This document shows positions 31,241 through 46,833 of a stretch of 64,000 nucleotides of DNA, one piece after another (within the stretch, counting starts at the first letter, position 1; each line of letters begins with the position of its first letter). The stretch is from positions 1 to 64,000 of the forward strand of contig DVLA01000071.1 of NCBI GenBank assembly GCA_018715745.1, in the 5' to 3' direction. The notes under the pieces are model-generated. The model was given only the letters and a program-made list of their open reading frames with translations, ran no database searches and had not been told where the DNA came from. Position numbers and translations under genes: made by a program. Origin of the DNA: Candidatus Coprenecus stercoripullorum (GTDB lineage Bacteria; Bacteroidota; Bacteroidia; Bacteroidales; UBA932).

Positions 31241-31244
31241 TCTG

Positions 31245-31318
31245 TCGGGGTAAAAGGACTCGAACCTTCGACCCCCTGCTCCCAAAGCAGGTGCGCTAGC
31301 CAACTGCGCCACACCCCG
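31245..31318 (-). tRNA. tRNA-Pro (anticodon TGG)
   Basis: 74-nt cloverleaf on minus strand: acceptor CGGGGTG/TACCCCG (+A), anticodon loop TTTGGGA flanked by CCTGC/GCAGG, T-arm GGTTCGAGTCC. Confidence 0.95.
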
Positions 31319-31325
31319 ATAAAGT

Positions 31326-31410
31326 TGCAAATATACACAGAAGCCGAGAGCGGAGCAAATGAGCTTGCTCAAATTTGCTTGGCCGAGGCGTAACAGTATA
31401 AATGCCGAAG
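31326..31410 (-). repeat. Promoter-bearing hairpin repeat, copy A
   Basis: Aligned with copies B and C: GCAAATATAC-NN-A-N-AAGCCGAG-N6-GCAAA...TTTGC...CCGAGGCG...TATA; contains minus-strand -33 TTTG (31356-31359) and -7 TATATTTG (31328-31335), 20-nt spacer. Confidence 0.75.
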
Positions 31411-31487
31411 GCAAATATACGCAGAAGCCGAGAGTAATGCAAACTTGTTTGCAATTACCGAGGCGCCCAAGTATATGTGGACGAAGC
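31411..31487 (-). repeat. Promoter-bearing hairpin repeat, copy B (tandem with A)
   Basis: GCAAATATACGCAGAAGCCGAGAG...GCAAACTTGTTTGC...CCGAGGCGCCCAAGTATATG; minus-strand -33 TTTG at 31440-31443 and -7 TATATTTG at 31412-31419, 20-nt spacer. Confidence 0.75.
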
Positions 31488-31504
31488 CGATAATTAAACT
31501 TCAT

Positions 31505-32188
31505 ATGAAAATACTTATAGTAGAGGATGATGCTTCGTTGAGGAAACTGATGCTCCGGGATCTTTCCCGAGAGAATTATATTGTCGAGACTGCATCGGAC
31601 TTCAATTCTGCCGATGCGCGCATAGCGGCATACAATTATGACTGTATTTTACTGGACATAATGCTGCCCGGAGGAAGCGGCCTCAAACTGTTGGAGCATA
31701 TTAAGAAGTTGCGCAGGAAGGACAATGTGATCATTATATCCGCAAAGGACTCGACAGAGGATAAGATAACCGGTCTTGACAACGGGGCGGATGACTATAT
31801 TGCCAAACCCTTCGAACTGTCGGAACTCAAGGCGAGAATCAAAAGCGTATTGCGAAGGAGCATGGGCGGCGGGGACATGTCATTGAACATGGGCAATGTC
31901 ACCGTACATACGGACAGCCGCATCGTTTCCGTAGACGGCCATGTCCTCCCGCTCTTGAAAAAGGAATACGATATTCTTCTGTACTTTATCCAGCATCCGA
32001 ACCATCTTGTGGACAAGTCCGATCTTGCGGAGGCAGTATGGGGAGACCATGCGGACGGGGTGGACAATTATCAGTTTCTCTATGCGCAGATGAAGAATCT
32101 CAGAAAAAAACTCGGCGAGGCCGGTGCCGCTATCGAGATAAAGGCGGTCTACGGTTTCGGATATAAACTGACAAGTACGGAAGGATAG
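31505..32188 (+). CDS. OmpR/PhoB-family response regulator
   Basis: MKILIVEDDASLRKLMLRDL, YDCILLDIMLPGGSGL, DDYIAKPFELSEL receiver; winged-helix C-terminus; start at 31505. Confidence 0.93.
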   Translation: MKILIVEDDASLRKLMLRDLSRENYIVETASDFNSADARIAAYNYDCILLDIMLPGGSGLKLLEHIKKLRRKDNVIIISAKDSTEDKITGLDNGADDYIAKPFELSELKARIKSVLRRSMGGGDMSLNMGNVTVHTDSRIVSVDGHVLPLLKKEYDILLYFIQHPNHLVDKSDLAEAVWGDHADGVDNYQFLYAQMKNLRKKLGEAGAAIEIKAVYGFGYKLTSTEG

Positions 32189-42651: not shown

Positions 42652-42703
42652 CGTAGTGCCTGTGTGCAACCGATGAAGGGGAGGCGGATAACCGTTTCCC
42701 CTT

Positions 42704-42786
42704 TTTTCGTCTTCGCCGCATATACTTGTGCGCCTCGGCATGAGCAAATAAATTTGCTCTGCACTCGGCTTGTACGTATATTTGCA
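42704..42786 (+). repeat. Promoter-bearing hairpin repeat, copy C
   Basis: CATATACTTGTGCGCCTCGGCATGAGCAAATAAATTTGCTCTGCACTCGGCTTGTACGTATATTTGC, inverse orientation to copies A/B; plus-strand -33 TTTG (42753-42756), -7 TATATTTG (42777-42784), 20-nt spacer. Confidence 0.75.
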
Positions 42787-42818
42787 TATCAAATTTTCCG
42801 TGTTACCGTTTAAATATT

Positions 42819-44450
42819 ATGAGAAAGATTTCATTTTTTTGCATGATGGCCGCTTTGCTGTTTACGGCGGTTTCATGTTCAAAAGACGATGAAGGCGATG
42901 GGATAGATGTGCCTTCCACTTCACTGGATGTTATTGTTACGGCTGACAGTTTCGTATCAGGGGACGGTTCGCTTTCCGTGCCCGCTGAGCTTAAGGCCGG
43001 GGATAAGATGGGGATTTTTGCCGTGGAGGACGGAATTATCCTCAATGATATTGTCAATGTATGCTTTACGGCTGCCGATGATGGAAACGGCGGGCTGGTC
43101 TGGAAAAGCGAGGAGGAAGTGATGTTTTCTTCCGGCTCCGAGTATTATGCATATATGCCTTACCAGGAGGCCCTGACAACCGCGCCCGACCCTTCTGCCG
43201 GGGATGCGGACGGCTTCTTCGCCCCGATGGCGGAGGCGTGGGCTGTCCGGGAGGACCAGAGTACGGCGGAATCCTATTGTGCCTCTGACATGATGACCGG
43301 CAGCGGCACTGTCGGGGAGGACGGCATGTCTATAAACCTTTCGCACAGGATGTCGTTGCTGCTTGTAGAGATACCGGTTACGCACTATACCTTTACGAAT
43401 ACCGAACGCACTATCCCGGACTATACCGTGACGGGTGAGGTCGGGTTTGACGGAGTGCAGCCCTATATTGACGGCGATTCGTATGCCCGTTTTATTGTCA
43501 ATCCCTGCAGCCCTTTGACAATAAAGGCTACTTATCTTTCAACGTCAGGGGATGAGGCCGAGTGGGAATTCGTGACGGATTATTCGGAAGGAACGCTGTA
43601 TCATGATGTCATAGGCAGCGGCAGACGTTCTGTCGAGCATAATCTCCAGGTCGGCGACTTTTTCTGTGCCGACGGCAATATCATTTCCAAGGATGCCGAC
43701 GGATCGCTGATTGCCTCTTCCAACGTTGTCGGCATGGTATTCCAGACAGACCCTTCCCGCTTCGGACAGAGGGAGACGGAGGCCCTGGACGGAGAAATAA
43801 GGGCTTTGGTATTCTCTACGAGGATGTCCGGAGGAAGCAAGGAGCCTGCGCACATGTGGTATATGGATTACGAAACGGAGACATGCGACAGGGACGAGTC
43901 GGAAATAGGCCTTGCCAGTATCAGGGCCGAAGGTGACTATACGCAGTCTTTCCTCAATGCGGATGCCGACTTGAGCGGCCTGCACAATACCGAGGCGATC
44001 ATAACCGCCAGGGCCGAGGACGTGGCGGCAGGAGAGTATCCTTCTTTTGAATTGGCGTATAACTTTATACAGGAAGTGGGCGGGCCGTTTGAGAATGTCC
44101 GTACGACCGGTTGGTTCCTTCCTTCGTCGGGCCAGGTTTTCGATATTCTCAGGGCGTTCACGGGGCTGACGCTTGATGAAGGGACGGACGGGTTCGCAGG
44201 ATACAACACAGACGAGTTCTATTGGCTTTTCGATCAAGGCATCGACGCCGTGCAGCTTCTTAACGATGCTATGGCCAAAGTCGGTACAGACAATAAGGAC
44301 CTCTTCGAAACAGGTTGGGGTCTGTGGTCTTCCACACAGGCCGAGAGCGACAAGGCATGTAATATCGGACTCGGGGCTCCCGGTTTTATCGACTGCATAT
44401 TCGAGTATAAGAAAAACGGAGGCAGGGTCCGTCCCGTACTTGCATTTTAA
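42819..44450 (+). CDS. fimbrillin-like lipoprotein with C-terminal DUF1566/FISUMP-like domain
   Basis: Lipobox LFTAVSCSKD, Mfa-like middle (INLSHRMSLLLVEIP), C-terminal GWFLPSSGQVFDIL...GLWSSTQAESDKACNIGL...GGRVRPVLAF. Confidence 0.75.
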   Translation: MRKISFFCMMAALLFTAVSCSKDDEGDGIDVPSTSLDVIVTADSFVSGDGSLSVPAELKAGDKMGIFAVEDGIILNDIVNVCFTAADDGNGGLVWKSEEEVMFSSGSEYYAYMPYQEALTTAPDPSAGDADGFFAPMAEAWAVREDQSTAESYCASDMMTGSGTVGEDGMSINLSHRMSLLLVEIPVTHYTFTNTERTIPDYTVTGEVGFDGVQPYIDGDSYARFIVNPCSPLTIKATYLSTSGDEAEWEFVTDYSEGTLYHDVIGSGRRSVEHNLQVGDFFCADGNIISKDADGSLIASSNVVGMVFQTDPSRFGQRETEALDGEIRALVFSTRMSGGSKEPAHMWYMDYETETCDRDESEIGLASIRAEGDYTQSFLNADADLSGLHNTEAIITARAEDVAAGEYPSFELAYNFIQEVGGPFENVRTTGWFLPSSGQVFDILRAFTGLTLDEGTDGFAGYNTDEFYWLFDQGIDAVQLLNDAMAKVGTDNKDLFETGWGLWSSTQAESDKACNIGLGAPGFIDCIFEYKKNGGRVRPVLAF

Positions 44451-44471: not shown

Positions 44472-45854
44472 ATGGAACTTCCTTTTGCTGAATCCTACAG
44501 GATTAAAATGGTGGAAACCATTAAGAAGAGTACCCGCGAAGAGCGTGAGAGATGGATAAAAGAAGCCAAGTACAACCTTTTCATGCTCAAGAGCGACTAC
44601 GTGTTTATCGATTTGCTTACCGATTCCGGTACAGGCGCCATGAGCGACAAGCAGTGGGCCGCTATTATGGAAGGGGACGAGAGCTATGCCGGGGCGCGTT
44701 CTTTCTATAATCTGAAGAATACTATAGAGAGTCTGACCGGTCTCAAGTACGTATTGCCTTCACATCAGGGCCGTGCTGCCGAGAACGTATTGTTTTCTTC
44801 CATTGTCAAGGAAGGGGATATCCTGCCTGGCAACTCCCATTTCGATACCACCAAGGGACATATCGAATACCGCAAGGCCATAGCTCTGGACTGCACCATT
44901 TCCGAAGCGTCGGATACAGAACTTGAGATTCCTTTCAAGGGCAATATGGACCTGAACAAGCTCGAAGACGTGCTTAAAAAGACCCCTAAGGAAAAGATTC
45001 CCTGCATAGTATTGACAATCACGAACAATACTGCTGGGGGACAGCCCGTTTCCATGGAGAATATCAAGGGTGTTTCCGCACTGGCCAGGAAATACGGTAT
45101 AAAGCTCCTTATCGACTCGGCCAGGTTCGCTGAAAACGCATATTTTATCAAGACACGCGAAAAAGGCTACGAAAACAAGTCCATCCGCGAGATAGTACGC
45201 GAAATATATGACTGTGCAGACTATATGACCATGTCGGCAAAGAAGGATGCCATAGTGAACATAGGCGGTTTTGTGGCTTTCCGCAATGAGGAAGACATGC
45301 GTAAGGCGCAGATGTTTACTATTATGAACGAAGGATTCCTCACATACGGCGGCATGGCCGGCCGCGACATGAACGCGCTCGCACAGGGCCTTATGGAAGG
45401 AACGGAGTTCGAATATCTTGAAACGCGGATCAAGCAGGTCGCTTATCTCGGAAAGAAGCTGGACGAATATGGCGTACCTTATCAGAGACCTGCCGGCGGA
45501 CATGCTATCTTCCTGGATGCAAAGAAGATACTTACTCACGTACCTAAGGAGGAATTTATAGCGCAGACTCTCGGAATCGAGCTTTATCTCGAAGCCGGCA
45601 TAAGGGGTGTGGAGATAGGCTCTCTCCTTGCCGACCGCGATCCGGTGACGCGCGAGAACAGGTATCCCGCCCTCGAACTTCTCCGTCTGGCCATACCCCG
45701 CAGGGTATATACCAATAACCATATGGATTATATCGCTGCAGCGGCCAAAAATGTGTATGACCGCAGGGAAAGCATCACGCGCGGGTACAAAATTGTAAAA
45801 GAATTGCCCATAATGCGCCATTTCACCATTGAAATGGACAAGGCCGACAGGTAA
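44472..45854 (+). CDS. tnaA: tryptophanase (tryptophan indole-lyase)
   Basis: FIDLLTDSGTGAMSDKQWAA, DSARFAENAYFIK, MSAKKDAIVNIGG PLP Lys, AGIRGVEIGSLLADRDPVT (Ile where tyrosine phenol-lyase has Arg). Confidence 0.93.
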   Translation: MELPFAESYRIKMVETIKKSTREERERWIKEAKYNLFMLKSDYVFIDLLTDSGTGAMSDKQWAAIMEGDESYAGARSFYNLKNTIESLTGLKYVLPSHQGRAAENVLFSSIVKEGDILPGNSHFDTTKGHIEYRKAIALDCTISEASDTELEIPFKGNMDLNKLEDVLKKTPKEKIPCIVLTITNNTAGGQPVSMENIKGVSALARKYGIKLLIDSARFAENAYFIKTREKGYENKSIREIVREIYDCADYMTMSAKKDAIVNIGGFVAFRNEEDMRKAQMFTIMNEGFLTYGGMAGRDMNALAQGLMEGTEFEYLETRIKQVAYLGKKLDEYGVPYQRPAGGHAIFLDAKKILTHVPKEEFIAQTLGIELYLEAGIRGVEIGSLLADRDPVTRENRYPALELLRLAIPRRVYTNNHMDYIAAAAKNVYDRRESITRGYKIVKELPIMRHFTIEMDKADR

Positions 45855-45855
45855 T

Positions 45856-46833
45856 ATGTATGACGGGAGCAGTTTCGCGGAGGACTGCCTGTCCGTATTC
45901 CGCTACCAGTACGCCAACTGTGCGGAATATCGCGAATACTCCCGGCTGCTTGGGGTGGAGTCTCCCGATACCGTGACCGGTATTGACGGGATTCCGTTTC
46001 TGCCTGTCAGGTTCTTCAAGCAATATAAAATCGTATCGGAGGGTTGCCGGAAGATATCCGGCGACCCTGTTGTTTTCAGCAGCAGCTCGACTACCGGACA
46101 GATACCCTCACGCCACTATGTCCTGGACCGTACAGTCTATGAACGCAGTTTCCTTGACTGTTTCAGGATGTTCTACGGGCAACCCGACACTTATGTCATT
46201 CTTGCCCTGCTTCCGTCGTATCTCGAAAGGGAAGGCTCTTCGCTGGTGTATATGGCCGAACGGCTTATCAGGGAGACATCCGACCCGTTAAGCGGATTTT
46301 ATCTTTATGATTACGGCAGGCTTTATTCATTGCTTCAGGATTTGGGGCGTCAGGGCAGGAAGACCCTGCTGCTCGGGGTCGCTTTCGCCCTTATGGATTT
46401 TGCCGACAAATACTCTCTGCCCGGTCCGAATGACAGCTGGCTTACCGTTATGGAAACCGGAGGCATGAAAGGACGGCGGGAGGAAATATCGCGGGATGCG
46501 ATGCACGGTAAACTGCGTAAAGGATTTTCAGTATCTTCCATCCATTCCGAATACGGCATGTGCGAACTTCTGTCGCAGGCCTACTCTGCGGGCAATGGCA
46601 TATTCAGGACGCCTCCGTGGATGAAAATCATAGTCAGGGATATCCACGACCCGTTGGTTTCCCTGCCCGAAGGAAAGCAGGGCATAATAGACATAGTGGA
46701 TCTGGCCAATATCAATTCCTGCTCGTTTATAGAGACGGAGGATATCGGGCGCCTGCTTCCCGACGGCTCGTTTACCGTGGACGGCCGTTTGTCCGGAGCC
46801 GAGCGCAGGGGATGCAATATGCTTATTGAATGA
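45856..46833 (+). CDS. LuxE-like acyl-protein synthetase / acyltransferase family protein
   Basis: GIPFLPVRFFKQYKIVSEG, FSSSSTTGQIPSRHYV, ETGGMKGRREEISRDAMH, SEYGMCELLSQAY motifs of LuxE/PaaK-type adenylating proteins; start at 45856. Confidence 0.8.
   Translation: MYDGSSFAEDCLSVFRYQYANCAEYREYSRLLGVESPDTVTGIDGIPFLPVRFFKQYKIVSEGCRKISGDPVVFSSSSTTGQIPSRHYVLDRTVYERSFLDCFRMFYGQPDTYVILALLPSYLEREGSSLVYMAERLIRETSDPLSGFYLYDYGRLYSLLQDLGRQGRKTLLLGVAFALMDFADKYSLPGPNDSWLTVMETGGMKGRREEISRDAMHGKLRKGFSVSSIHSEYGMCELLSQAYSAGNGIFRTPPWMKIIVRDIHDPLVSLPEGKQGIIDIVDLANINSCSFIETEDIGRLLPDGSFTVDGRLSGAERRGCNMLIE

Follow-up and report, generated by a model that had tools for sequence, protein, structure and literature searches.

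What a short repeat is doing in front of a fimbrillin-like gene, when the same sequence stands in the opposite orientation before a tRNA gene in the same 64,000-nucleotide stretch of Bacteroidales DNA (the window), is the question raised by this locus. The initial annotation read the copy at the fimbrillin-like gene (copy C) as a delivered promoter, and its palindrome, −33 element, −7 box and downstream ATG at 42819 were all confirmed in the sequence. As defined from the sequence and the genome-wide family, copy C is one unit on the plus strand (42711–42785). It contains the left end CATATAC (42719–42725), in which N′ is the pairing partner of the variable position in the −7 box (GTATN), the block CCTCGGC to the left of the palindrome (42733–42739), the palindrome GAGCAAA-TAAA-TTTGCTC (42742–42759) with the −33 element TTTG in its right arm (42753–42756), the conserved spacer CTCGGCTTGTACG (42764–42776) and the −7 box TATATTTG (42777–42784), at which the element ends. 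Its start had been placed at 42704, but this position closes a terminator-like stem of secDF (42675–42704, plus strand) lying just upstream of copy C and outside it, so that the element proper spans approximately 42711–42785. Copy C matches copies A/B (31327–31452, minus strand) in the opposite orientation, as had been claimed, with zero matches genome-wide for the reversed control. The palindrome of copy C also holds a second TAnnTTTG word, TAAATTTG, at 42749–42756.

Copy C precedes the fimbrillin-like gene (42819–44450, plus strand; PF13149, E 1.1e-11), a probably cotranscribed tryptophanase (beta-eliminating lyase) gene (44472–45854, plus strand) and a LuxE-like acyl-protein synthetase gene (45829–46833; PF04443, E 3.7e-9). 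Where the region is intact, most congeners have tryptophanase directly after secDF with a −7 box of its own, while in the source genome copy C and the fimbrillin-like gene are found between the two. The tryptophanase gene starts 21 bp behind the fimbrillin-like gene, and TAnnTTTG is absent from the 270 bp before its ATG in the source genome, suggesting that copy C probably drives both genes. Copy C is absent from the congeners, and none of the fimbrillin-like homologues elsewhere in the genus carries the element.

Copies A and B are two units of one tandem array with an 84-bp period, pointing at tRNA-Pro. Unit A (31327–31410, minus strand; −7 box 31335–31328) adjoins the tRNA-Pro(TGG) gene (31244–31318, minus strand), and unit B (31411–31484, minus strand; −7 box 31419–31412) is the second of the array. 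This locus is syntenic in congeners. The tRNA was found at 12 congener loci, each of which has the native −7 box, GCAAATATA (plus strand), 10–15 bp from tRNA-Pro and lacks the element. In the source genome the same native box is kept, followed by units A and B in place of the native sequence. Both copies are absent from the congeners and appear to have taken over tRNA-Pro in this window. On the other side of the array lies a response-regulator gene (at 31505), for which most congeners have a −7 box reading TAAATTTG or a close variant. The source genome lacks this stretch (31485–31505), and there the gene is faced by the outer end of copy B (CAAGTATATGTGG, preceded at 20 nt by TTTG). From the lost box and the facing outer end, the element may also work backwards, toward the response-regulator gene.

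Based on pattern searches, the source genome, a fragmented Bacteroidales assembly (1.69 Mb, 95 contigs, 86% complete), holds about 25–30 copies of the repeat and not three as first described: 30 matches to TCGGCTTNTNCGTATNTTTGC were obtained with up to two mismatches and 25 with a stricter pattern, against 0 for the reversed control in each case. Elsewhere in Bacteroidales, at least 114 stretches matched exactly, and the carriers among the matches listed from named genomes were Cryptobacteroides, Merdivivens, Coprenecus, Egerieousia, Alistipes, other Rikenellaceae and one Muribaculum. The cultured strain Alistipes muris DSM 112343 was one of these carriers. Matches were present in 15 of 18 congeners and absent from three. 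In an evenly drawn sample of 247 Bacteroidales genomes, only four had more than one match, indicating a patchy distribution. Viral contigs gave no exact match and plasmids no match, which speaks against phage or plasmid as the vehicle. An Rfam search at the element returned no RNA family, and no description of the repeat was found in the literature searched, the coverage of which was incomplete.

The aligned copies share a unit order of N′ATAC, TGTTGCGCCTCGGC, palindrome, CTCGGCTTCTGCG and TATNTTTG(C), the last being the σABfr −7 box, with a unit length or tandem spacing of 73–87 bp. The two ends form putative, imperfect terminal inverted repeats (CANATAC / GTATNTTTG), and tandem units are joined via a small hairpin, for example TATATTTGGCC-TGAC-GGCCACATATAC. 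Palindromes were diverse, with 96 distinct inner sequences in 138 copies, and varied freely in both sequence and length. Their halves paired at 71.7% within a copy versus 65.7% (sd 0.55) with same-length halves of other copies, and the left-end N′ was complementary to N of the −7 box in 124 of 138 copies (shuffles: mean 94.5, maximum 106), both covariation tests being inflated by the relatedness of the copies. Single-strand folding of single units was weakly better than that of shuffles (z −0.8 to −1.9), so that the palindrome structure rests on covariation. The palindrome overlaps the −33 element while its symmetry is kept by covariation, and control through a cruciform or a bound protein, as a candidate reading, may operate there. 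Broken −7 boxes were found in 53 of 85 internal tandem units and in 7 of 203 terminal units, a set partly selected by that box.

The −7 TAnnTTTG and −33 TTTG of the repeat are the same as those of the σABfr consensus (PMC7366714). Of 218 distinct copies, 172 had YTTG at a spacing of exactly 20 nt before the −7 box, and 125 had TTTG there. The repeat has, in addition, the conserved spacer and the palindrome upstream, whereas the ordinary σABfr promoters of the same genes lack both. A standard σ70 scan detected no promoter, as expected for Bacteroidota. A gene start was counted where an ATG began an ORF of 100 codons or more, or where an ORF of 60 codons or more continued past the contig edge. 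By this definition, each of the 106 copies from named genomes that could be tested had a start within 300 nt downstream (median 26 nt), and no copy away from genes was found among them. The same criterion gave 53% on the opposite side and 58% at random positions, which is chance level. Within 100 nt, a start followed 80.8% of the TAT[ACT]TTTG words in elements and 49.5% of non-element words.

The genes downstream are unrelated to each other and include miaB, surE, GAPDH, thyA, glnS, serS, hisS, tyrS, valS, rpsP, tatC, tRNA and others, as named by reading of protein starts (Pfam was run for window proteins only). One gene, with the protein start MPIPVNIEQLL, stands behind the element in the source genome and in three other records (L027, L082, L117, L145). 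With the majority of copies standing before tRNA, synthetase, ribosomal and metabolic genes, the fimbrial link drawn in the initial annotation is incidental, and the repeat, given such unrelated targets, marks no regulon. One mark of a mobile promoter, the occurrence of nearly the same promoter sequence in front of genes that are not homologous within a genome, was found. From the sequence we infer that the copies are active σABfr promoters. The fixed σABfr geometry, the gene always just downstream and the ordinary −7 box in element-free congeners support the idea of promoter delivery.

Comparison of filled and empty sites showed where the repeat joins its targets. Element positions differ between species, with presence or absence at orthologous genes of close relatives; at miaB, rdgB, yidE and thyA the element was found only in the source genome (for rdgB, the native −7 box is not clear in the nearest empty congeners). 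At pyrD, the empty locus reads CCTAAATAG-TTTTTA-CGTATATTTGCCATTG and the filled locus has 223 nt between CCTAAATAG and CGTATATTTGCCATTG, with a left flank of 99.8% identity. An 85-nt insert at serS is flanked on both sides by TATATT, approximately 23 nt of the native upstream region is lost at rpsP, and one unit lies at the box of a Cof-like gene with box-like sequence at both ends. The only candidates for a target duplication are serS and the Cof-like gene; pyrD, rpsP and lgt show none and have lost native bases. Nine loci gave a separate right-hand BLAST block. In seven of them (prfB, serS, the L317 gene, pyrD, rpsP, the L337 gene and an RNase-R-like gene), homology with the empty locus restarted 8–15 nt before the end of TTTGC, and in the other two (CutC-like and Cof-like genes) it restarted later. 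The junction is the native −7 box of the target gene at tRNA-Pro, pyrD, rpsP, serS, the Cof-like gene and others. The gene's own box and leader stay in place, the DNA upstream is replaced or displaced, and this pattern recurs at unrelated genes, sometimes with alteration of native −7 letters (TATCTTTG to TATATTTG or TATATTCG). The left junction is ragged, native DNA being missing over 0 to about 26 nt, and this raggedness, together with duplication at no more than two loci, indicates a process other than textbook transposition. At a gpd-like gene, G018 and G012 have a common element left half and different palindromes, which suggests exchange between copies.

The best reading of these results is that the repeat is a 'mobile promoter' dispersed through chromosomal Bacteroidales DNA, short and non-coding, similar to REPs and MITEs and tied to the −7 box, and as a whole this explanation is probably correct. 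One unit would supply a palindrome with a −33 element and a fixed spacer, ending at the −7 box TAnnTTTG(C). Spread may proceed via recombination or template switching anchored on the shared 8–13 bp −7 word, which would account for the fixed right end and the ragged left end. Copies would persist where they drive a gene, and selection for useful promoters would account for the lack of copies away from genes. Alternatively, a transposition system may target the −7 box, perhaps inserting into the strand exposed at promoter opening. That a dedicated mobile system of this type fuses its own −33 half to the native box and leader, leaving the transcript unchanged, is a tentative proposal that we consider possible rather than probable. 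Given the consensus −7 box at the element end, insertion and the repeated conversion of promoters already in place would leave identical right junctions. Putative mobile promoters of prokaryotes have been described (Matus-Garcia 2012; van Passel 2014, as cited in PMC8049555). Compared with these, as they are presented in the citing article, the repeat joins at the native −7 box and exchanges the upstream half only, has a palindrome and tandem-unit anatomy, and is represented by many filled and empty sites.

Mobilization by a RAYT (Y1) transposase, with the repeat as a REP-like sequence, would fit short intergenic palindromic repeats in many copies. REP elements with RAYT, including TnpAREP subclass 2.6 of Bacteroidetes, likewise consist of short intergenic palindromes in tens of copies and provide a precedent (PMC6006769). 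Within the genus this candidate was promising by Pfam, with Y1_Tnp in 15 of 15 element-bearing and 0 of 3 element-free congeners, and one Y1 gene had a copy right upstream in four congeners. However, it failed with a local-family profile and more genomes: Y1 proteins were found in the copy-free G001 and G008, and none in G000 (25–30 copies, only 86% complete) or G136 (10 copies, 99% complete), the latter also being without Y1 by Pfam. Other Y1 genes had no copy nearby, no GTAG or CGTC foot was seen, and the aligned copies showed CTCGGC and GGC/TAAT contexts at the hairpin foot. Unlike REP elements, the repeat has no consistent RAYT and always places a promoter at a fixed position before genes, making this origin unlikely.

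It is similarly improbable that the copies form a regulon, each being an ordinary conserved operator and promoter that arose locally at its gene and is bound by one common regulator. The conserved CTCGGC blocks, the palindromes near −33 and the fixed orientation would be expected of such sites, but the genes downstream are functionally unrelated, positions differ between congeners, the palindromes are free to vary in sequence and length, and tandem units and shared left ends indicate copying.

A MITE moved by its own unseen DDE transposase, with promoter positions reflecting selection only, would explain the imperfect terminal inverted repeats with their covarying base and the apparent short duplication at serS, and promoter-bearing MITEs are known in Porphyromonas (PMC4596501). 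Among these, BrickBuilt of Porphyromonas gingivalis is likewise a Bacteroidales intergenic repeat with tandem units, small inverted ends and promoter activity, the last being inferred for our repeat. BrickBuilt has a 23-nt tandem unit and lies 49–591 nt from genes (PMC4596501), in contrast to units of 73–87 bp that end in a −7 box at a median of 26 nt from the ATG. Such a MITE is very improbable here, as insertions at pyrD, rpsP and lgt proceeded with loss of native bases and no duplication, the element always joins at the −7 box and not at diverse sites, and no copy away from genes was found. The repeat behaves as a mobile promoter would, and lacks some of the tested features that define REP/RAYT elements and BrickBuilt. 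Invertible promoters are known from Bacteroides, and the imperfect inverted ends and the fimbrillin-like gene downstream would fit the phase-variable fimbrial switch considered in the initial annotation, but this is extremely improbable, as 106 of 106 copies face the gene, orthologous copies keep their orientation, no inverted form was seen, inversion would take the −7 box away from the gene, and the same element serves tRNA and housekeeping genes.

Turnover of promoters is commonly attributed to point mutation or to a complete outward-facing promoter being inserted. The repeat appears to swap a promoter's upstream half and to leave its −7 box, start region and leader in place. In this way it appears to alter how common gut bacteria turn on ordinary housekeeping genes, at genes for tRNAs, ribosomal proteins, synthetases and metabolic functions. 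It represents a natural experiment on promoter rewiring, with a set of filled and empty sites for testing the targeting mechanism.

Two variants of the unit were also observed. At six loci (L063, L077, L084, L062, L079 and L118), the left half is swapped for a longer, different hairpin (for example, CATAAGACATGAAGTCTTCTGTC) with the right half unchanged, and this hairpin is possibly a second repeat family fused to the repeat. At L039, L040, L053, L067 and other Alistipes-type loci, a variant with GATAC/GTATC ends and the spacer CTCGGCTTATTCG parallels the TATAC/GTATA type.
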